59,001 nucleotides of DNA from contig JANQUV010000039.1 in the NCBI GenBank assembly GCA_030730585.1, forward strand, positions 28,389 to 87,389. Direction: 5' to 3'. Below the pieces are notes generated by a model. The model searched no databases. It saw only the letters and a list, made by a program, of their open reading frames with translations, and was not told the DNA's origin. Numbering within the stretch: position 1 is the first letter of the stretch; each line of letters begins with the position of its first letter. Of this stretch, positions 1 through 22,286 are shown in pieces. Source of the stretch: Haliea sp. (GTDB taxonomy: Bacteria; Pseudomonadota; Gammaproteobacteria; Pseudomonadales; Halieaceae). The position numbers and the translations under genes were made by a program.

Positions 1-3000
1 CCAGCGCTTGGCATCCAGCAGAATCATATATAGTGCAGGCACGAGCAACAGCGTAATCACCGTCGCAAACACGATGCCGAAGGCCAGCGACACGGCCATC
101 GGCACGATTTCTTGTGCCTGAGCACTGCGCTCCAGCAACATGGGTGCCAGGCCAAAGAAGGTGGTCAGCGAGGTTAGCAGAATGGCGCGGAAGCGCTGTG
201 TGCATGACTCCACCACGGCCCGCAGGGGCTCTACGCCGCTCTTGACCGCATTGTTAATATGATCAACGAGGATCAGACTGTCGTTCACCACAACACCACT
301 CAATGCAATAACGCCCATCATGGACATCATGCTTAAAGGGTATCCGGTGAGCCAGTGGCCGACCACCGCGCCGATGACGCCAAACGGAATCACGCCCATA
401 ATAATCAACGGCTGTAGATAGGAGCGCGTGGGGATCGCCAATAGAGCATAAATACCGAACAGGGCGAGACCGAACCCGATCATCATGCTTTTCACTATCT
501 TGCTCTCCTCGTCGGCCATACCGGCAACGGCGTAGCTGAGCCCAGGGTAGCTTTGCAATAGCCCCGGGAGGACTTCGGCCTCCAGATCGGCAACGATACG
601 CGAAGGCTCTACCACGTCCTTATTGGCTTCCGCAGTGACTTCTGCTGCGCGCTGGTAGTTGATATGGGTCACTTTACGCAGCCCCTGCCGAACTTCCAGG
701 CTTGCCACCGTCTCGAAGGGCAGCTCTCGTCCATCCGGTGTGCGTATGTACATATCTTGTAGTGTATTGATCGTTTCGCGGTCGGCACGAGGGTAGCGCA
801 CCATGACTTTAACTTCATCGAGCCCGCGCTGCATGCGCTGGGCCTCGGCACCGTAGAAGGCGTGACGCACCTGAGTGGCAACCTCGTAGCGGGTCAGCCC
901 GAGTGCCTCCCCCTCCGGCAGCAGCTCAATATTGAACTCGTCCGCCGTATCGCTGGCGCCATTACGCACGTCATAGATACCGTCGTAGCGGTGAATGGCA
1001 GTTTCCAGCTCGGCGGCCGCTGCTCGCAACAGGGTGAAGTCGCGGTGCATCAGGTCGAAAGCAATCGCCGGTCCAAATGAGGGCCCGTCAGCGCTACTAA
1101 TAGACAGCACTTTGGTGCCGTGCAGGTTACCCACAGCTTCGCGCCAGCGCCGCTCGACTTCTCGCGTGGAAACGCTGCGCTGATCCTCCTTGGTGAGTTC
1201 GATTTCAACTCCGCCTGTAGTCCGGCCACTGCCATAGGCGAAGACATGATTGACGAGGTGTTCCTCGCCTCCCGTAGCATCGCTGTGCGACTTATCGACA
1301 TGCTCAAGTGCAGTCACGATATGTTCGATAACCGCTAGGGTGCGTTCCTCGGGGGTGCCTTCGGTCATTTCTAGTTGCATCGAAATAAATTCACCGGGCA
1401 CATCGGGTGCAATAACCGTGCGCACAATGCCGCCGGCCACTAGCCCGCTGCACAGGATCAACAGTGCAACAAAGGAGGCCAGGGTCGCGTAGCGATTGCG
1501 AATGCAGCGCTGCATTAATGGGCTGTAGCGCTCATGGATAAACCGTTTGAGGGTGTGGTTGACGCGCTGTTGTTGCCGGTCAACAGCGAGCAATAGCCGA
1601 TTACGTGTGGGTTTGCTGTGGGCCAAGTGTGCGGGCAGAATCCATTTGGATTCGATCAGCGAAAACACCAAACACAATATGACAACCCAACCACAGGCTT
1701 CTGGAAAAGCAGCGAAAACCCCCTCCATAAACAAGGTGGGCGCAAAAGCGACAATGGTGGTAAGCACGCCAAAGGTGGCAGGCACTGCCACTTTATTGAC
1801 ACCATCGACCACACTTTGAATGCTGTGCCCAAAACGTTCCTGTTCGGTGTAGGCGCTTTCTCCCATAATAATGGCATCGTCAACCACGATGCCCAGCACC
1901 AAGATAAAACCGAACAAGCTGATCATGTTCAGGCTAGCGTGAATATAGGGAGTGTTAATGAGTGCCATGGCGCCCAAGAAGCACACGGGAATACCCAGCA
2001 TGACCCAGAAGGCCAGCTTGATCTCCAAAAACAGCGCCAGCACGATGAAAACCAGCAAAGCACCCATCGCAAGGTTTTTCAGCATCATGCCCAAGCGCCC
2101 TTCCAGATAGAAGGTGATATCTGACCAGATGTCCAGCGTGACTGCAGACGGCAATTGAAGCTGCTTTTGTTCAACCCAGGCGCGAGTGGCCTCGGCTGTA
2201 TCCATAATATCCTGCTCACCCATGGCGAACACTTGAATGCCCAGCGAGTAGCTGCCGTTGAAGCGGGCGAAACCGCTGTCCTCTACAAAGCCATCGTTTA
2301 CCGTCGCGATATCCCCCAGCAGCAGCCTCGTGCCATCAGGGAAACTGCGTAAAACGATGGACTCAAAGTCCTGCTGCACGTAGGCCTGGCCTTGCGTGCG
2401 CAACAAAATATCGCCCTGACGGGTGCGCAGTGAACCGGCAGGCAGGTCCAGAGATGAGCGCGCTATAACATCGGCAACCTCGTGCAGTGTGAGGTGATAC
2501 TCACGCAGCAACGGCTCGGAAATTTCGATGGAGACCTCGTAGTCGCGCGCGCCCACGACCTCAGCCGCAGACACTTCGGGCAGGGTCAGTAAATCGCGCC
2601 GGATATCTTCTGCCAGTATTTTCATGCTGCGCTCGTCCAACTCCCCGGAAAGCTGCAGCTGAAGCGCAGGAAATTGCAGTTCCGGCTGGCTGATGATCGC
2701 GCTCTCGGCGTTGGCCGGAAAGTGTTGGATGGAATCGATGCGGTTTTTGATTTCACTGAGCAGGGCGTTGAGGTCGGTGCCTTCCTGGGGTTCCACCATT
2801 ACCCTGGCATGAGAGTCCAGGGCATCGGACTCCACGCGTTTGATGCCATCGAGGTCGTTGATCGCCTCCTCGATTTTTAACACGATGCCTTGTTCAACCT
2901 CTTCCGGAGAGGCGCCGGGATAGGACATATTGATAAAAATCAGTTCGATATCGAAGCTGGGGAACATGGACCGCTGGATATTAAATGCGGACCCGAGGCC

Positions 3001-3090
3001 GACCACCAGAATGATGGCCATGAGCAGGTTGGCCGCTACCGGGTTGTGTGCAAACCAGGCGATAACTCCGCCCTGATGGTGCGTGCTCAT
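1..3090 (-). CDS. RND-family efflux permease (AcrB/HAE1-like), 3' partial
   Basis: Inner-membrane proton-driven RND transporter that works with the adaptor encoded just upstream to expel substrates across the envelope. I translated 1030 codons from ATG at 3090 without a stop to the left edge. The protein starts MSTHHQGGVIAWFAHNPVAA, with the first membrane helix right after. Two large periplasmic loops each contain the PN/PC-type repeats of the family. The TM4 motif GIVVDDAIIMGE (about residue 400) carries the paired Asp of the proton relay. The visible end reads VPALYMILLDAKRW, matching the last transmembrane segment, so probably only a short tail is missing. The start codon overlaps the adaptor stop as ATGA, indicating translational coupling. 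Substrate unknown. Confidence 0.93.
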   Translation of the reverse strand, partial: MSTHHQGGVIAWFAHNPVAANLLMAIILVVGLGSAFNIQRSMFPSFDIELIFINMSYPGASPEEVEQGIVLKIEEAINDLDGIKRVESDALDSHARVMVEPQEGTDLNALLSEIKNRIDSIQHFPANAESAIISQPELQFPALQLQLSGELDERSMKILAEDIRRDLLTLPEVSAAEVVGARDYEVSIEISEPLLREYHLTLHEVADVIARSSLDLPAGSLRTRQGDILLRTQGQAYVQQDFESIVLRSFPDGTRLLLGDIATVNDGFVEDSGFARFNGSYSLGIQVFAMGEQDIMDTAEATRAWVEQKQLQLPSAVTLDIWSDITFYLEGRLGMMLKNLAMGALLVFIVLALFLEIKLAFWVMLGIPVCFLGAMALINTPYIHASLNMISLFGFILVLGIVVDDAIIMGESAYTEQERFGHSIQSVVDGVNKVAVPATFGVLTTIVAFAPTLFMEGVFAAFPEACGWVVILCLVFSLIESKWILPAHLAHSKPTRNRLLLAVDRQQQRVNHTLKRFIHERYSPLMQRCIRNRYATLASFVALLILCSGLVAGGIVRTVIAPDVPGEFISMQLEMTEGTPEERTLAVIEHIVTALEHVDKSHSDATGGEEHLVNHVFAYGSGRTTGGVEIELTKEDQRSVSTREVERRWREAVGNLHGTKVLSISSADGPSFGPAIAFDLMHRDFTLLRAAAAELETAIHRYDGIYDVRNGASDTADEFNIELLPEGEALGLTRYEVATQVRHAFYGAEAQRMQRGLDEVKVMVRYPRADRETINTLQDMYIRTPDGRELPFETVASLEVRQGLRKVTHINYQRAAEVTAEANKDVVEPSRIVADLEAEVLPGLLQSYPGLSYAVAGMADEESKIVKSMMIGFGLALFGIYALLAIPTRSYLQPLIIMGVIPFGVIGAVVGHWLTGYPLSMMSMMGVIALSGVVVNDSLILVDHINNAVKSGVEPLRAVVESCTQRFRAILLTSLTTFFGLAPMLLERSAQAQEIVPMAVSLAFGIVFATVITLLLVPALYMILLDAKRW

Positions 3091-4367
3091 GGTGAAGGCG
3101 CCTCACCGGTTATCGATTGCGCTTTATCCTCGGCAAGGTCGCTGTTGAGGGGGAGCGGTGAGTTTTTGATATGCTCCTGCTCGCGGAGCTCGCGACTGCT
3201 AACCCGCGATACCACACTCACTTCAGCACCGGTCAGTGCGTTGTCCAAAGTGGTGAGAATGACCTCGTCGCCGTCTTCCAACCCTGAAGAAACGTAGACA
3301 AAATCACCCCCGGTGCGCAGCGTGATAACCGCGCGATTGCGCACCAGATTGTTGTCATCGACCACTGCAACATTGTCGCCCGCGCGCATGACGTAGCGTG
3401 GCAGAGCCACCAATCCTGGCATTGGCCGCCCCTCGATGTTGGCGGTGACAAAGGTCCCCACGCGCAAGGCTGCGCGCTCCGGCTGGTTGAGGCCATAGGG
3501 GTCGTCAATACGCGCAACAGCAAACAGCGACCGCGAGCGTTCGTCGAAGACACCCTCACTGCGATGCAGCCGGGCAGGCCAATGACTGACGTCGCCGTTC
3601 ACGTCCGTATAGAGGTCAATGGTCGCACCAGCGTCGTCGCTGCGTACTCCGGGTAAGTCGAGATAAGCCAGTCGGGTCTGCGGGATAGGCAAGCGCACCT
3701 CGGCGATATCGACTGAGAAGATCTCGGCGAGTTGCGCGCCGGGTGTGACGAATTGCCCCAGTTCACTGTGTTTGGCGCTAATCAACGCCGAATACGGTGC
3801 GCGCACACTGGTTCTGTCGAGGTCATTCTGCGCTGTTTGCAGGTCAGCGCGCGCGGCGAGGAGTTGTCCTTCAGCTTGCGCCAGCTGTGGCTTGCGCAGG
3901 TACAGGTCGCGGGCCTCTGGTGATCTCTGGCTGCCGGCGGGAAGCTTTTCCCATTCTCGCCGTGCAACATCGGCTCGCCCTTGCTCCTGCAGCAATTCAC
4001 TTTCTGCTGCACGGATTGCGGCCTCAGCGCGCGCCTGCCGGGCTTGATAGTCTCGCGGGTCAATGCGCAGCAGCACTTCGTCTTTCTGTAAAAAACCGCC
4101 CACGTTAAAAGTCGGTGAGACCTCGACGATGCGGCCCTGAACTTCTGCCAGCAAGGTCGTTTGTTGCAGCGGTGAGACCGTACCCTGTGCTTGCATTGGG
4201 ATACGAATGGTTTCCTTTTCAGCGACCACCACATCCACAGTAACGGGCGCGTAGATTGGCTCGGTAATATCTGTGTCAGGCCGCAGTGAATAGAGCAGTG
4301 CTGTGATGAGGGCTGCTACCAGCAAGAGTGCGATAGCGATGATAGATTGGCTTTTTACCGTGGACAC
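3087..4367 (-). CDS. RND efflux periplasmic adaptor (membrane fusion protein, HlyD/AcrA family)
   Basis: Membrane-fusion subunit linking the RND permease to an outer-membrane channel. The 426-residue product starts with an uncleaved-type N-terminal membrane anchor (residues 8-27). A lipoyl/barrel-sandwich half follows (around TVSPLQQTTLLAEVQGRIVE). Next come a long alpha-helical hairpin rich in Ala, Gln, Glu and Arg (about 110-195), the second lipoyl half (SAKHSELGQFVTPGAQL), then beta-barrel and membrane-proximal domains. The start is GTG at 4367 with no strong Shine-Dalgarno. The stop overlaps the permease start by four bases. No outer-membrane factor gene is visible in the window, so a TolC homologue elsewhere is presumed. 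The charged tail after about residue 395 is not conserved in the family. Confidence 0.92.
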   Translation of the reverse strand: MSTVKSQSIIAIALLLVAALITALLYSLRPDTDITEPIYAPVTVDVVVAEKETIRIPMQAQGTVSPLQQTTLLAEVQGRIVEVSPTFNVGGFLQKDEVLLRIDPRDYQARQARAEAAIRAAESELLQEQGRADVARREWEKLPAGSQRSPEARDLYLRKPQLAQAEGQLLAARADLQTAQNDLDRTSVRAPYSALISAKHSELGQFVTPGAQLAEIFSVDIAEVRLPIPQTRLAYLDLPGVRSDDAGATIDLYTDVNGDVSHWPARLHRSEGVFDERSRSLFAVARIDDPYGLNQPERAALRVGTFVTANIEGRPMPGLVALPRYVMRAGDNVAVVDDNNLVRNRAVITLRTGGDFVYVSSGLEDGDEVILTTLDNALTGAEVSVVSRVSSRELREQEHIKNSPLPLNSDLAEDKAQSITGEAPSP

Positions 4368-4436
4368 ATTGAATACCAGTTCGGTGCACTGGCCCGCAAC
4401 ACCCAGTGTGCGAGCCCGTGCAAACGGAAAGTTATC

Positions 4437-4445
4437 TTTATATCA
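4437..4445 (-). promoter_or_regulatory. Possible extended -10 promoter for the RND operon
   Basis: On the minus strand the string TGATATAAA fits an extended -10 element (TGn plus TATAAA). It lies about 70 bases before the adaptor GTG and downstream of the mscS stop. No good -35 hexamer was found at the usual distance. The placement would let the efflux operon be transcribed separately from mscS. Confidence 0.3.
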
Positions 4446-4473
4446 CATAGGCAGATTTGCGCTCTGTGAAATA

Positions 4474-4491
4474 CTGGTAATACGCTACCAG
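4474..4491 (-). terminator. Hairpin just after mscS (weak terminator candidate)
   Basis: A perfect six-base stem, CTGGTA with TACCAG around a six-base loop, begins three bases after the mscS stop on the minus strand. Only a short mixed T run (TATTT) follows, so it could be a weak terminator or an RNA 3'-end stabiliser. Confidence 0.35.
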
Positions 4492-4493
4492 AA

Positions 4494-5312
4494 TCAGGCT
4501 TTTGTGGGGCTGTGTACGTCCATTTGCGGGAAGGGAATAGTGATTCCGGCTTCGTCAAACCTCAGCTTTACGGCCTCAATGGTGTCCCAGGAGACGGCCC
4601 AATAGTCTTCTGATTTCACCCAGGGCCGAACCAGAAACTTAACGCTTGAGTCCGCGAGTTCGCCAACGGCTATGGTGGGTGCCGGATCCAACAGTATCCG
4701 CTCGTCGGCAGCAATAATGTCCTCCAGCAGTTTCTTCGCCTTGCGTAGGTCATCCCCGTAGGAGACGCCAAAGACGAGGTCGACACGGCGTGTCGGGCGA
4801 GCTGAGTAGTTGGTGATGTTGTTGCCGATTACGGCACTGTTGGGCACGGTCACTTCTTTGTTGTCGGGAGTGGTCAGTATGGTGGTGAAAATACTGATGC
4901 TCTGAACAACGCCCATGGCGCCACCGGCTTCAACGAAGTTACCCTTCGTGAAAGGGCGAAAGATGATCAGCAATACGCCTGCGGCGAGGTTTGACAGGGA
5001 GCTTTGCAAAGACAGCCCGATGGCCAGGCCCGCGGCACCGAGTAGCGCCACCATTGACGTTGTGTCAATGCCGAGTTGGCTGAGTGCCGCGATGATCACA
5101 AACAGCAGCAATATCCAATGTAGAATGGACGTGAGGAACTTCACCAGCACCTCGTCCATTTGACGCGCTCGCATGAATTTATCAACCCATCCGGCGACGA
5201 CCTTCACCACTGTGCGGCCGATATAAAAAATAGCCAATGCAAAAATGATGCGTGTGCCCCAAGGTATCACGTAGCCTTGCAGCAGTTCGTTTAAGTCAAG
5301 ATTTTCGAACAT
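4494..5312 (-). CDS. Small-conductance mechanosensitive channel (MscS family)
   Basis: Tension-gated inner-membrane channel that releases solutes on osmotic downshock. The 272-residue protein has the minimal MscS layout: three transmembrane helices (about 15-35, 60-80, 85-110), then the cytoplasmic beta and alpha/beta domains. The pore-lining TM3 reads LLGAAGLAIGLSLQSSLSNL, with the Gly/Ala packing pattern typical of MscS, followed by GVLLIIFRPF. The C-terminal segment VDLVFGVSYGDDLRKAKKLL matches the mixed alpha/beta domain. Length is close to E. coli MscS (286). The gene is monocistronic or leads into the RND operon, and it is divergent from the MaoC gene. Confidence 0.93.
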   Translation of the reverse strand: MFENLDLNELLQGYVIPWGTRIIFALAIFYIGRTVVKVVAGWVDKFMRARQMDEVLVKFLTSILHWILLLFVIIAALSQLGIDTTSMVALLGAAGLAIGLSLQSSLSNLAAGVLLIIFRPFTKGNFVEAGGAMGVVQSISIFTTILTTPDNKEVTVPNSAVIGNNITNYSARPTRRVDLVFGVSYGDDLRKAKKLLEDIIAADERILLDPAPTIAVGELADSSVKFLVRPWVKSEDYWAVSWDTIEAVKLRFDEAGITIPFPQMDVHSPTKA

Positions 5313-17826: not shown

Positions 17827-18621
17827 ATGCTCCGTTTTGCATCGCTTGGCAGCGGCAGTAAAGGCAATGCCACGGTGGTGTCGGGTGGTGCAACGACGGT
17901 GCTGATTGATTGCGGGTTCTCGGCGCGTGAAACCCGGCGGCGCTTGGCGCTTTTGGGCTTGTGCCCGACGCAGCTCTCGGCAATTCTGGTGACACATGAA
18001 CACAGCGACCATAGCGCAGGTGTCAGTCGCGTGGCCCGCCAGTGGGATATCCCGGTCTATCTGACTCACGGCACCTTGCGCAGCGGTCGTTTGGAAGGCT
18101 GCCCTACGGTGGTTTGTTTTAACAGCGAAGAGAGCTTTCCGATCGGCGACTTGTGGGTAGACCCCGTGGCGGTGCCTCATGATGCACGAGAGCCCTGCCA
18201 GTATCGGCTGGCCCATGGAGGCCGCTCCCTTGGCGTCTTGACCGACTTAGGCAGTATTACCCGTCACGTGGTCGAGCGTTTTCGTGGCTGTGATGCCCTG
18301 GTGTTGGAGTTCAATCATGATCTTGAGATGCTCTGGGCAGGCAGCTATCCTCCAGCACTCAAGCGCCGTGTGGCGGGTGATTGGGGGCATTTGAATAACC
18401 AGCAGGCTGCGGAACTGCTGCGGCAGTTGGGCCCCGAAACCCTGCAGCATCTTGTCGTGGCACACATCAGCGAGCACAATAATTGCCCGTCTCGCGCTGC
18501 TGCAGCGCTTGCACCTGTGCTTGGAGCGGGTGACCCACGCGTGGTCTTCGCGGCTCAGAATGCAGGCTTCGACTGGCTCGCGCTAGCGACAGTGACGGGG
18601 CAAAGTCAGGCGTTCCAGTGA
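17827..18621 (+). CDS. MBL-fold metallohydrolase (YycJ/WalJ-like)
   Basis: 264-residue metallo-beta-lactamase-fold protein. The zinc motif THEHSDH is at 56-62, with further ligands in VPHDA and in VVAHISEHNN near the C-terminus. The opening FASLGSGSKGNATVV is characteristic of the YycJ group, which has been linked to DNA mismatch processing as an exonuclease in Bacillus. It starts ten bases after bamC, so it is probably in the dapA-bamC transcript. The 3' end overlaps the convergent lipoprotein gene by 39 bases. Confidence 0.88.
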   Translation: MLRFASLGSGSKGNATVVSGGATTVLIDCGFSARETRRRLALLGLCPTQLSAILVTHEHSDHSAGVSRVARQWDIPVYLTHGTLRSGRLEGCPTVVCFNSEESFPIGDLWVDPVAVPHDAREPCQYRLAHGGRSLGVLTDLGSITRHVVERFRGCDALVLEFNHDLEMLWAGSYPPALKRRVAGDWGHLNNQQAAELLRQLGPETLQHLVVAHISEHNNCPSRAAAALAPVLGAGDPRVVFAAQNAGFDWLALATVTGQSQAFQ

Positions 18622-19074
18622 TGGCCAATGGATTGGTTGAGGGCAGCTAAGCGAGCTGTTGCCGTGCAGATTAACGACAGCGAGCTCGGGCAGGCGGTAC
18701 AGTGGTGCCGCGTCTTCTATCCGGTTGTCATCCAGCATAACGCTGCGCAATTCCAGCAGCACCCCCAGTTCACGAATATCGGTGAGCGTATTGCCGCCAA
18801 GGTTGAGCCAGCTCAGGCTGGAAAAACTGCCCAGACCTTCGATGCTGCGCACCCCAGCACCGCTGCAATCGAGCGTCTGTAATTCTCCTATGCTGCTGAT
18901 TTTATTGTCGTTGATGGCTTGTTCCAGGCATGCACGCAGCGCCGGGTCCTTAACCTGGAAGTCAGTAAGCAGTGGCCGTGGGCTGTAGACTACCCGTTCA
19001 TTCACGCTAAAATCATACTGTTGGCAGCCCGCCAGGAGGTATGCGAAGAAAACGATGATCCATGGGTGGCGCAT
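18583..19074 (-). CDS. Leucine-rich-repeat lipoprotein
   Basis: 163-residue predicted lipoprotein. The signal peptide ends in LLAGC with Cys at 17. About four LRR-type units follow (SIEGLGSFSSLSWLNLGGNT, then LRSVMLDDNRIEDAAPLYRL), with the internalin-like spacing LxxLxLxxN. Leucine-rich repeats normally mediate protein contacts, and no partner is evident. The gene converges on the MBL gene and is divergent from the cyclase-like gene, so it appears monocistronic. Confidence 0.75.
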   Translation of the reverse strand: MRHPWIIVFFAYLLAGCQQYDFSVNERVVYSPRPLLTDFQVKDPALRACLEQAINDNKISSIGELQTLDCSGAGVRSIEGLGSFSSLSWLNLGGNTLTDIRELGVLLELRSVMLDDNRIEDAAPLYRLPELAVVNLHGNSSLSCPQPIHWPSLERLTLPRHCR

Positions 19075-19195: not shown

Positions 19196-20545
19196 ATGGT
19201 TGACGTAGACGAGGCCGGCGCCATGAAGAACGGCGCGGCCACAGATCACAAGACTATCATTATTTCTCAGCGTGGCAATCTTAAAGCGCTGGAGAGTGCG
19301 TTGCGTAAGCAATGGCGCCTGGGACAAAACATTGTGTTGTGCTGGAGCGCGGATGAGCGCGGTGTTCTAGTGATCTTTGTCCCCCATTATTTCTTAGGCA
19401 ACTTTTGTGCCCGGCTAGACCACGCAGGGGTGCAGGACAACGAGGCCTTTGTTCGTGAGCTCATATCGGGTGACCGCCGCAAACCTCACGATGAGTTCTT
19501 CGCCATTGCCAATCGGCTGGATATTGCGCCCGGCTTTATCCGGCTGGACACGCCAATAGCGGATGAGCCCGCGGTTGTCAGTGCGGTAGAACAGCTGATC
19601 AAGCGCTATGGTCTAAGCTACGTGAGCGATCGGGCGGTGTTGTTGTTTGATATCGCGGAGTTTTCGCTGTTCACACCGTTCGAGCAGGCGAGCCAGCTCA
19701 ACAGCCTCTCCTATTCGCTGAACTCTGCTTATAACAAGCTGTTGGTACAGGGCATTGAGGTGCATTTTTCCCGCACCACAACGGGCGATGGTTTCTACGT
19801 GTGGAATCGCGCGCTTGGCGCGCAGGCCAACCGTGATCTGTTTTATTTTCTGTTGCTGGTGATAGCTGACAATGCGGTAGCGCGGCGGGCTTCACGTGGT
19901 AATACGGTACCCGTAATCCGTGCTGCGTATCACGTGGGCAGCCACTATGAGTTGTATCAGGCCGAGGGCGTGAACCCCACTGTATACAGCTACATCGTTG
20001 GCGATGTGACGATTGAGTTGGCGCGGTTGGTCGAAAAGGCACAACCGGAGCAAATCCTTATGGGCCACTTTGAGACCGCTTTGGATGTGCCCGCAGGAAG
20101 CAATGCCGAAGCGCAAGAACTGGTGTTTTCTCCGGGGTTTCTTGAGTACTGCAATCAAGGTCTGAGTGGGCTGCAGGGCATACAGTTTGCCGGTAAAAAT
20201 GTCGCCAAGCTGCATTGCAGGCTTTCCGGCTCAGGCGTTGCCGATGATCGGCGCGCCGTGCGCAGATTCCTGATCATCGATAAACACGGGCTTTCCCGTC
20301 ACGCCTACAATCTTGAACTTGGGATCGAATTCGAAGACCTGACACTGGCCCTGGGGCTTGCCGAGGCGGCCTTGCCAGAGGAGGTGGCTGAATCTTCTGC
20401 AGCCGCGGTGGCACTGGACATGTTCGCCAGTCCCGATGCCGAAGACGGCATAGCTACGGGTGAGGTGAGCCTGTATGAGCAGGTTGAGGAGTTGGCCTCT
20501 CTGCTACAGGATCGCTTTCACCCCGAAGCACAGGATAACCCTTAA
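19196..20545 (+). CDS. Divergent class III nucleotidyl cyclase-like protein
   Basis: 449-residue soluble protein not assigned to a named family with certainty. The central part resembles a class III cyclase homology domain. LLFDIAEFS (Asp152) matches the first metal-binding Asp. TTTGDGFYVW (Asp198) matches the second, and their spacing of 46 is close to the 44 in mammalian cyclases. GDVTIELARLVEKAQPEQIL (269 on) matches the later GxxVNxAxR block. Arg277 of that block is kept, but the transition-state Asn is Ile273, and the base-selecting Lys is not evident. Residues 1-140 and 330-449 match nothing I know; the tail is acidic. The HD/PDE-like gene follows after five bases. It may be a cyclase, a degenerate sensor or a cyclase-fold scaffold. 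Confidence 0.6.
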   Translation: MVDVDEAGAMKNGAATDHKTIIISQRGNLKALESALRKQWRLGQNIVLCWSADERGVLVIFVPHYFLGNFCARLDHAGVQDNEAFVRELISGDRRKPHDEFFAIANRLDIAPGFIRLDTPIADEPAVVSAVEQLIKRYGLSYVSDRAVLLFDIAEFSLFTPFEQASQLNSLSYSLNSAYNKLLVQGIEVHFSRTTTGDGFYVWNRALGAQANRDLFYFLLLVIADNAVARRASRGNTVPVIRAAYHVGSHYELYQAEGVNPTVYSYIVGDVTIELARLVEKAQPEQILMGHFETALDVPAGSNAEAQELVFSPGFLEYCNQGLSGLQGIQFAGKNVAKLHCRLSGSGVADDRRAVRRFLIIDKHGLSRHAYNLELGIEFEDLTLALGLAEAALPEEVAESSAAAVALDMFASPDAEDGIATGEVSLYEQVEELASLLQDRFHPEAQDNP

Positions 20546-20550
20546 TCGCT

Positions 20551-21453
20551 ATGGTACGACTGACTAACTGCGAGCGTTACGACATCACCGGTCAAGTTGC
20601 ACTGGGTGATGTATCTGCGGTGCTTGAGGAAGTGCGTCGCACGCTCAGGGCGCAATGGCCTGAGGGAGATTGGTCGGCTCTCGATAGCCTTGGCCGGCTG
20701 TTCGTAGAGCTCTATTCGAGCGATCATCCTGAGTATCACGGTTGTGATGTGGGGTATCACGATGCCGAGCACGTCTTGGACGTGACATTGGCGATGGCGC
20801 GGTTAGTGGTCGGCAGGGAAAAACGCTGGCGCGGGGCCTTCGCCTTCGATGCTCGTTTGGCCATGGCCGGGATTGCCAGCGCGCTGTTTCATGATGCAGG
20901 TTATTTGCGTCGGCGCGGCGATCGCCGGCACAGCACCGGTGCGGCCTATACCCGTACGCATGTTCGTAGAGGTGCTGCGCTGATTAGGTCGCAGTTTCCC
21001 GCCGTTGGGTTAGGGTCGCTCGCTCCGATGTGTGCCTGGCTGGTGCATTTTACCAATTCCAACCGCAAACCTCCGAGGCTGGTAATGGGTAGCCAGAGAG
21101 AATGGCAGCTTGGTGCCTTGCTGGGCACTGCCGACCTACTGGCGCAAATCGCAGCGCCTGATTACTTGGAGAAATGCCGCCTGGCGCTGTACGACGAGTT
21201 TGTTGCCTGTGGTATAGCGGCTGCCGACCAGTCCCCCAATCCTGAAATTTGCAGCTATCGTTCTCGCGATGATTTAATGCAGCGCACCTCCGGCTTTGTT
21301 AGTCGGGTCGCTGGAACCCGATTAGAAGAGGACTTTGCCGGAGCGTATCACTACGCGAGCAGCTACTTCGACGGCGAGAACCCGTACTTGGATGCGGTTG
21401 TGGCTAATTGCGCCCGCCTCGAGCTCTGGTTAGCGCCTGGCCCCATCCACTGA
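20551..21453 (+). CDS. HD-domain phosphohydrolase resembling cyclic-nucleotide phosphodiesterases
   Basis: 300-residue metal-dependent HD protein. GYHDAEHVLDV (His70, His74, Asp77) follows the class I phosphodiesterase pattern YHNxxHxxDV. LFHDAGY (His114, Asp115) supplies the HD pair, and TADLLAQ (Asp195) matches the later metal-ligand Asp. About 40 N-terminal residues precede the domain. The gene lies five bases after the cyclase-like gene, with no good Shine-Dalgarno, implying coupling. The pairing suggests synthesis and breakdown of the same nucleotide signal. Other HD substrates (dNTP, ppGpp, cyclic dinucleotides) remain possible. No HD-GYP motif is present. Confidence 0.7.
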   Translation: MVRLTNCERYDITGQVALGDVSAVLEEVRRTLRAQWPEGDWSALDSLGRLFVELYSSDHPEYHGCDVGYHDAEHVLDVTLAMARLVVGREKRWRGAFAFDARLAMAGIASALFHDAGYLRRRGDRRHSTGAAYTRTHVRRGAALIRSQFPAVGLGSLAPMCAWLVHFTNSNRKPPRLVMGSQREWQLGALLGTADLLAQIAAPDYLEKCRLALYDEFVACGIAAADQSPNPEICSYRSRDDLMQRTSGFVSRVAGTRLEEDFAGAYHYASSYFDGENPYLDAVVANCARLELWLAPGPIH

Positions 21454-21458
21454 TTGCG

Positions 21459-22286
21459 ATGCCCGGTTTCTCCGCACAGGCGCACGCTGGGATTGCCGTT
21501 ATTGCGGCAGATGCATCACTTGATGCGAAGGCGGCGGCTTTGGCGCAGGAGTTGGGGTTACCCTTTCTCAATGCTCACGCAGCGCTGACATTGCCCGGCC
21601 TGCAAGCGCTGCTGCGGGTAGAAGTGGATGCCTTAGCCTTGCAGGCAGTGGCCTCGTCTGGGCAGGCACCGGGGCCAGTGAGTGTTGATTTTGGCGCGGG
21701 TGCGATGCGTCATCGACGACGAGGCGGGCAGAATGAACTGCTGGGCAAGGCTGTTGGCGTGGGTAAAAAGCGCGGACTATCGGTTCTCGACGCCACCGCT
21801 GGCCTCGCCCGCGATAGCTTTGTGTTGGCCGACCTGGGTTGTCACTTGCTGCTTACCGAGCGTGAGCCTGTGGTGGGCGCGTTGGTGGCCGCGGGCCTGG
21901 CGCGCGCCATGCGCTCGCCAGATCCCTGGCTTGCTGAGGTCGTCAGTCGTATGCGGTTACACCGCGGCTGTGCCACCCACTTGCTGGCACCGCAGCTGGC
22001 GGGCGTCGATGTCATCTATCTCGACCCAATGTTTCCCGAACGCGACAAGTCTGCCGCTGTAAAAAAAGAAATGGCGCTGTTTCAGAGCCTGTTTGTGCGC
22101 AGCAACGCCGAAGACGACGCAGGTGCTCTATTGGATTGGGCGTTGCACTGTAATGTGGCCAGAGTGGTTGTAAAGCGTCCGCTGCGGGCACCGCCTTTGT
22201 GCTTGCAGCGGCCTTCGCATGCCATTGTCGGCAAAGCGGTGCGTTATGATGTCTATATACTGCGCAGCCTTGGACAGAACGCATAG
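21459..22286 (+). CDS. rsmJ: 16S rRNA (guanine-1516-N2)-methyltransferase
   Basis: 275-residue SAM-dependent methyltransferase modifying G1516 of 16S rRNA. The SAM motif is DATAGLARDSFVLADLG (from 111), acidic motif II lies in LLLTEREP, and the catalytic motif is YLDPMFPER around 185-193. These together are typical of RsmJ. ATG at 21459 follows the HD gene stop by five bases. A longer frame starting inside the HD gene lacks supporting features. Convergent with the SDR gene downstream, four bases apart. Confidence 0.92.
   Translation: MPGFSAQAHAGIAVIAADASLDAKAAALAQELGLPFLNAHAALTLPGLQALLRVEVDALALQAVASSGQAPGPVSVDFGAGAMRHRRRGGQNELLGKAVGVGKKRGLSVLDATAGLARDSFVLADLGCHLLLTEREPVVGALVAAGLARAMRSPDPWLAEVVSRMRLHRGCATHLLAPQLAGVDVIYLDPMFPERDKSAAVKKEMALFQSLFVRSNAEDDAGALLDWALHCNVARVVVKRPLRAPPLCLQRPSHAIVGKAVRYDVYILRSLGQNA

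Follow-up and report, generated by a model that had tools for sequence, protein, structure and literature searches.

A diverged class III cyclase-fold protein and a class I phosphodiesterase-like HD protein in Haliea: a possible make-and-break pair for a cyclic nucleotide

Do two adjoining genes, one for an altered nucleotidyl cyclase and one for a phosphodiesterase-like HD protein, make and break a cyclic nucleotide? The question is raised by a 59,001-nt stretch of DNA from Haliea sp. (assembly GCA_030730585.1, contig JANQUV010000039.1, positions 28,389–87,389 of the forward strand), which we call the window. Here gene 1 (19196–20545, + strand; 449 aa) and gene 2 (20551–21453, + strand; 300 aa) are co-directional open reading frames (ORFs) separated by 5 bases. 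Gene 1 is predicted to encode a diverged class III cyclase-fold protein, and gene 2 an HD protein with a class I phosphodiesterase (PDE) fold. Our tentative answer, to which we give a probability of about 0.42, is that they form a make-and-break pair for a cyclic nucleotide, on a remodelled branch of class III. This reading rests directly on predicted folds, residues, conservation and adjacency in one clade; binding of a nucleoside triphosphate (NTP), catalysis, the identity of the product and the action of gene 2 on that product are what we infer.

An earlier note on this DNA had proposed that structure prediction and profile searches be used to check the cyclase and PDE assignments. An AlphaFold model of gene 1, built from 73 members (pLDDT 88.1, pTM 0.83), was compared with class III cyclases, giving a best Foldseek E of 3.0e-8 and a best VIA-align Z of 14.7 (2.8 Å over 183 residues, mostly residues ∼135–380). 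Across the 50 VIA rows listed, Z ranged from 13.2 to 14.7. On this model, gene 1 has the predicted fold of a class III nucleotidyl cyclase. Its core (∼residues 135–380, 19598–20335, the span of most VIA-align rows) follows an alpha/beta N-terminal domain (∼residues 18–134, 19247–19597), delimited from the predicted secondary structure. Profile searches returned no cyclase model: gene 1 had no match in Pfam, NCBIfam, PADLOC or the Protein Data Bank (PDB; single sequence and profile), a plasmid search gave no match, and no cyclase model, PF00211 included, was among the 13 families listed for the 73 members at E up to 10. Relatives of gene 1 matched unrelated families weakly, most commonly HTH_3 (13 of 73 members). 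This HTH_3-like (XRE) stretch scored at best 20 bits (E 7.1e-4), below the cut-off of 23, and was sub-threshold in the four members with scores; by offset from the relatives it corresponds to about gene 1 residues 82–115 (19439–19540), and the window's own protein has no HTH_3 match.

The metal-binding machinery of gene 1 is invariant. We aligned 102 of 110 fetched relatives (eight were dropped for length or truncation, and near-copies were kept). The first metal Asp, D152 (19649–19651), which aligns with the Asp of other cyclases, and the second, D198 (19787–19789) in a GDG motif, were present in 102 of 102 rows at a spacing of 46, as was F156. The transition-state Arg, R277 (20024–20026), was found in 101 of 101 rows plus one gap, and T272 in 101 with one gap. 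After thinning to 73 rows, D152, D198, T272 and R277 remain listed as invariant, and loci titled alpha-, beta- and gammaproteobacteria all retain the two Asp and the Arg.

The substrate-choosing parts, by contrast, are replaced. At I273 (20012–20014), the transition-state Asn position, the relatives have Ile (97), Val (3) or Leu (1), with one gap and Asn in 0 of 101, so that the Arg of the Asn–Arg pair is kept and the Asn is absent. T194 (19775–19777) occupies the position of the base-selecting Lys, where Ser (63), Thr (37) and Ala (2) account for all 102 rows. At the position of its partner, Y266 (19991–19993), Tyr (67) or Phe (33) fills 100 of 101 rows, with one Asp and one gap. Neither a Lys–Asp/Thr nor a Glu–Cys pair is found there, in a register taken from a weak alignment. 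The phosphate-contacting Lys position, 332, is Ser, Ala, Gly, Met or Cys in 101 of 102 rows (register by eye). The equivalences at 194, 266 and 332, like those at positions 134, 137 and 246 of gene 2, come from sequence alignment, spacing or eye. When the gene 1 profile was aligned by hhalign to six cyclase domains from neighbouring loci, the weak alignment put D152, T194, D198, Y266, I273 and R277 onto cyclase motif positions. R193 adjoins the Lys position; 96 of 102 rows have Arg there, as do 20 of 20 rows linked to gene 2, and if the strand were shifted by one residue, this Arg would lie at the base. A DKHG motif (362–365) is almost invariant, and 40 columns of the core fall below 0.3 bits versus 4 in the N-terminal domain. 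The site thus appears rebuilt in a conserved manner, not decayed. Activity is favoured, since Asp and Arg kept across proteobacterial classes would be needless in a dead enzyme.

For gene 2 the model (pLDDT 93.6, pTM 0.93) matched class I PDEs with a VIA Z of 18.7 (3.5 Å, 240 aligned residues, span 10–297). All 50 VIA rows listed were class I PDEs (Z 17.8–18.7), and the best Foldseek E was 3.7e-4. The predicted fold is that of a eukaryote-type class I cyclic-nucleotide PDE. Identity as an HD-GYP, SpoT or dGTPase protein was provisionally set aside, as none of these was among the Foldseek or VIA rows listed. PDEase_I (PF00233) was weakly matched in 16 of 19 gene 2 members (best E 7.7e-4); gene 2 itself scored 11.6 bits against a cut-off of 24.8. 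Thus the profile searches gave no cyclase model for gene 1 and a PDE match for gene 2 that is weak and below cut-off. PDB searches with the single sequence and with a profile gave no match to gene 2. A partial match to NCBIfam NF045583 (Npun_R2479 family HD metalloprotein; 40 bits, best stretch 127–225) was far under the 400-bit cut-off. No paper was found under the name Npun_R2479 in the literature collection searched, nor on gene 1 or gene 2 proteins in a search by general terms only. Both folds are settled as far as prediction allows, and the earlier note's proposal escapes one of the outcomes that it said would refute it, a fold unrelated to class III cyclases.

To assess the conservation of gene 2 we took 50 distinct strong relatives, each of 200 aa or more and with E below 1e-60. 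The protein reads Y69-H70-D71-A72-E73-H74-V75-L76-D77-V78, then H114-D115, then D195. H70-D-A-E-H74 (20758–20772) holds the probable catalytic His and first metal His, H114-D115 (20890–20895) is the HD metal pair, H137 (20959–20961) is probably a sixth metal-pocket residue, by presumed equivalence, and D195 (21133–21135) is the later metal Asp. H70, H74, D115, H137, D195, Y118 and F249 were present in 50 of 50 relatives, H114 and T246 in 49 and T134 in 48. Six of the eight class I metal-pocket residues that an excerpt on a Giardia PDE lists (PMC5617230) are kept, namely H70, H74, H114, D115, H137 and D195. Gene 2 reads HDAGYLRRRG where the class I signature is H-D-[LIVMFY]-x-H-x-[AG]-x(2)-[NQ], as given in an extract of PMC10865986, and so departs from it. 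T246-x-x-F249 (21286–21297) probably takes the place of the base-selecting Gln and the Phe clamp found in class I PDEs, an assignment drawn from spacing. By that likely equivalence the Gln is replaced by Thr (49 of 50) or Ser (1 of 50). T246 lies 51 residues past D195, which we take to be the distance to the Gln of PDE4B.

These residues bear out what the earlier note had read from the sequence: both ORFs, the 5-base gap, D152 and D198 at a spacing of 46, I273, R277, the lack of an evident base-selecting Lys, and in gene 2 a YHDxxHxxDV, HD and later Asp pattern, whose H70, H74, H114, D115 and D195 are conserved in 49–50 of 50 relatives. Conservation across 102 gene 1 and 50 gene 2 relatives indicates that the pattern is not chance.

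How might such a pair work? Gene 1 would stand for a new branch of class III, as a protein of nucleotidyl-cyclase type that binds an NTP through its two metal Asp and a DIxxF(S) loop. It would probably cyclise this NTP in a remodelled pocket, with Ser/Thr and Tyr/Phe for the base, Ile in place of Asn, and the Arg kept. Gene 2 would be a bacterial class I-type PDE that hydrolyses the 3',5'-cyclic product of gene 1, or cyclic AMP (cAMP). A bolder version, which we consider unlikely, is that gene 1 founds a new cyclase class whose signal is other than cAMP or cyclic GMP (with a different base, a modified nucleotide or a linkage that is not 3',5'), with gene 2, its base pocket altered, as the dedicated off switch of a system parallel to cAMP signalling.

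If the two proteins act together, their genes might be expected to travel together, and the earlier note had called them coupled. Among 58 relatives searched (window genome included), gene 1 was found in 33 and gene 2 in 20. In the window's family, 32 of 37 genomes have gene 1 and 16 have gene 2, the copy of genome G026 being a fragment at a contig end. Gene 2 adjoins gene 1 in 16 of the 16 family genomes that have it, and no genome with gene 2 and without gene 1 was found among the 37. The coupling is one-sided, however, with gene 1 standing alone in half of the family genomes that have it. In the other 21 relatives, both genes occur only in G039, where they are adjacent, and gene 2 occurs alone in G047, G052 and G053. 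Across 369 genomes of the class, gene 1 was detected in 9 and gene 2 in 34 (E ≤ 0.001) or 19 (below 1e-40); across 398 genomes of the phylum, the corresponding numbers were 5, 27 and 9. Both genes, counting strong gene 2 matches, were present in 3 of 369 class and 2 of 398 phylum genomes, the window genome being counted in each of these figures. In these sets the genes are adjacent solely in the window's genome; those of G223, G424 and G481 lie on different contigs. These counts reject a fixed pairing across bacteria: outside one clade, the independent distribution that the earlier note held to be refuting is largely what we see. Gene 2 turned up in 4 of 80 loci fetched from named genomes, many of which are short, and not in the other 76. 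It is adjacent to gene 1 in L002 and L003, and ∼3.1–3.3 kb upstream in L039 and L046.

Phylogenies indicate how this pattern may have arisen. A tree of the 50 gene 2 sequences includes 20 with linkage to gene 1: 15 from the window's family, those of G039, L002 and L003, and, more loosely linked, L039 and L046. These require 2 changes of linkage versus a shuffled mean of 15.9. None of 200 bootstrap trees needed only one change, and a single clade is not rejected (approximately unbiased test, p 0.163). In the gene 1 tree (48 rows: 30 of the window's family, 5 other linked and 13 chosen others; quick method), linkage requires 10 changes, at least 6 of them forced by starred branches, against a shuffled mean of 15.9. 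The pairing is kept in two families of the order, that of G039 and the window's, in a near-clade of gene 2. Taken together, the two trees are best read as early pairing followed by repeated loss of gene 2 with gene 1 retained, the trees alone being unable to separate gain from loss.

Gene 1 also keeps company with a third gene. SAM_MT (PF04445, RsmJ-like; Pfam 2e-62) is next in line at 21459–22286 (+ strand), and begins 5 bases past gene 2 if the chosen ATG at 21459 is its start codon. Given the 5-base gaps and the shared direction, the three genes are probably on one transcript, with SAM_MT as the third. In loci of the window's family that lack gene 2, SAM_MT directly follows gene 1 in 11 of 14, and two of the other three were left unresolved by the ORF caller. 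The tie of gene 1 to SAM_MT is therefore no looser than its tie to gene 2.

What would the pair add to the cell? Elsewhere the window genome encodes one PF00211 cyclase (95.2 bits) with a cyclic nucleoside monophosphate (cNMP)-binding protein ∼1.2 kb away, seven cNMP-binding stretches in all, and CpdA above cut-off. Ordinary cAMP turnover thus looks covered, and the pair is not needed for it. CpdA is above cut-off in 15 of 16 gene 2-bearing genomes of the family, the exception being G015, which has both genes. It is also found in nearly all relatives without gene 2, so its presence alone does not explain the losses of gene 2. Because a second PDE for plain cAMP would be redundant beside CpdA, a separate nucleotide or pool is mildly favoured.

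Several observations weigh against a make-and-break pair. No library cyclase model recognises gene 1, its hhalign score against the six cyclase domains is weak (3.2% probability, E 0.014), and replacements affect the Asn, the two base residues and the Lys position that contacts phosphate. In gene 2, the signature His is Y118 (50 of 50) and the Glu is probably T134 (48 of 50), by presumed equivalence. Of the 32 family genomes with gene 1, 16 lack gene 2, and most other fetched loci likewise hold gene 1 without it. Conversely, among 50 distinct strong gene 2 sequences, 30 come from a fetched locus that shows no gene 1, and a cyclase neighbour was detected for only 3 of these 30, with a search model built from the cyclases of three loci (L173, L174 and L180) that possibly missed others. 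L175 (G143), of the same family as L180, has no cyclase neighbour.

Much of this would fit a pseudo-cyclase, and we regard this alternative as a serious one. Gene 1 would be a nucleotide-binding sensor or scaffold that makes nothing, and gene 2 a PDE for the cAMP of the PF00211 cyclase. The family-wide alteration of the Asn, base-pair and phosphate-Lys positions agrees with it, as do the presence of that cyclase (95.2 bits) and seven cNMP-binding stretches in the genome and the retention of gene 1 without gene 2 in half of the family genomes that have it. Metal Asp in 102 of 102 relatives and the Arg in 101 of 101 would be unexpected in a pseudo-enzyme, however, and CpdA, found in 15 of 16 gene 2-bearing family genomes, makes a second cAMP PDE redundant. 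We prefer the make-and-break pair to a pseudo-cyclase beside a cAMP PDE.

Comparison with known systems bears on what the pair would handle. Gene 1 resembles class III cyclases (PF00211; Ma1120, Cya2, CHASE2) in its predicted fold, two metal Asp, DIxxF(S) loop and transition-state Arg. It differs in having no Pfam match, no base Lys or Glu, almost no Asp/Thr partner and Ile for Asn, and in its extra conserved DKHG motif and an N-terminal domain (18–134) without a clear family. Gene 2 resembles eukaryotic class I PDEs (PF00233; PDE10A, PDE1B, PDE4) in its fold, HxxxH, HD, and later His and Asp, and has Thr-x-x-Phe at their Gln-x-x-Phe place, by spacing. It departs from them in being bacterial, in its 11.6 versus 24.8 bits, and in having Tyr for His, Thr for Glu and Thr for Gln. 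The same two folds are paired in streptophyte CAPE, a class III adenylyl cyclase fused to a class I PDE, and in an extract of its description (PMC8115329) the CAPE proteins of Marchantia, Ginkgo and Anthoceros carry Thr where the Gln would be, as gene 2 probably does. According to the same extract, CAPE is fused and transmembrane with consensus cyclase residues, whereas here there are two proteins and a remodelled cyclase.

Could the pair simply turn over cAMP, as in plants? Gene 1 would then be a diverged adenylyl cyclase and gene 2 a cAMP PDE, as in CAPE. The excerpted text of PMC4215837 describes Ma1120, in which Ala replaces the Asn, as an active adenylyl cyclase, and Marchantia CAPE-PDE, with Thr for Gln, is described as cAMP-specific in the quoted portion of PMC8115329. 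By analogy with these two proteins, the altered sites are no proof of an unusual nucleotide. The plain-cAMP alternative also gains from the three gene 2 relatives that stand beside cyclases with a Lys–Thr pair (by eye). Set against this are the lack of a base-position Lys in all 102 relatives of gene 1, with Tyr/Phe and not Asp/Thr in 100 of 101, and the PF00211 cyclase and CpdA already in the genome. We judge it improbable.

Those three gene 2 relatives merit a closer look. In L173 and L174 (one family) and L180 (another), a strong gene 2 relative lies directly downstream of a CHASE2 cyclase in which, by eye, the Lys, Thr, Asn and Arg are all present. The CHASE2 Pfam assignment is that of the L173 cyclase, at 2610–4826 of its locus. 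These loci present a bacterial tandem of a cyclase and a class I-type PDE without gene 1, and count in favour of the make-and-break reading. In one genus (L226, L246), a cyclase gene converges on a weaker gene 2 relative; the cyclase of L246 is assigned by Pfam. Downstream of gene 1 in L052 is a co-directional cyclase-domain neighbour.

It is less probable still that the adjacency is an accident of operon layout, with gene 2 slotted between gene 1 and SAM_MT and acting on a deoxynucleoside triphosphate, (p)ppGpp or another phosphoester: such an accident would suit the 11 of 14 loci where SAM_MT directly follows gene 1, the mostly unrelated neighbours of gene 2 relatives, the RelA/SpoT gene 60 bases upstream of gene 1 in G039 (L193) and the many substrates of HD domains mentioned in an excerpt of PMC8177086, and it is at odds with the match of gene 2 to class I PDEs over nearly its full length with no other HD family among the listed rows, with the pairing kept in two families of the order and a near-clade of gene 2, and with the separate adjacency of gene 2 relatives to CHASE2 cyclases.

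Two assignments to defence were also set aside. Gene 1 shares with PycC of Pycsar, as far as an extract of PMC11224242 describes it, a class III fold, a non-purine base pocket and two metal Asp. The base residues reported in that extract include F100/R142/Q144 and F60/K104/F109. By offset from the metal Asp, the PycC places fall on L150, T194/T196 and Y201 of gene 1, where the residues differ; R193 is one off, and a one-residue shift is possible. A further difference is the presence of gene 1 in 32 of the 37 genomes of the family. With the reported residues mismatched by offset and no gene 1 match in PADLOC, a Pycsar identity was provisionally set aside. So was a defence pair more generally, PADLOC giving for gene 2 just a CARF match at E 0.044.

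Other neighbours were noted around the two genes. A short leucine-rich-repeat, lipoprotein-like gene (18583–19074, – strand) is divergent from gene 1 in the window. Its cluster occurs in 17 fetched loci and, in 16, directly before gene 1 on the opposite strand. L197 has a cyclase-FHA protein (4012–4947) encoded convergently to a gene 1 relative and 23 bases from it. The RelA/SpoT gene of G039, a genome of another family, is at L193 7214–9484 (– strand), co-directional with the gene 1–gene 2 pair. Genes for a PP2C phosphatase and an FHA protein precede a gene 2 relative at L184 (6305–7760; also L183, by clustering), a neighbourhood of phosphoprotein signalling.

Gene 1 represents a conserved proteobacterial family outside the cyclase models of Pfam and NCBIfam, in which the metal machinery is kept and the substrate-choosing parts are replaced. 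Gene 2 shows a predicted eukaryote-type PDE fold in proteobacteria; for class I PDEs in bacteria and archaea, the available extract of PMC10865986 speaks of only 'a few examples'. If the make-and-break pair works as proposed, it would lead straight to a further nucleotide signal, and to bacterial relatives of major drug-target enzymes.

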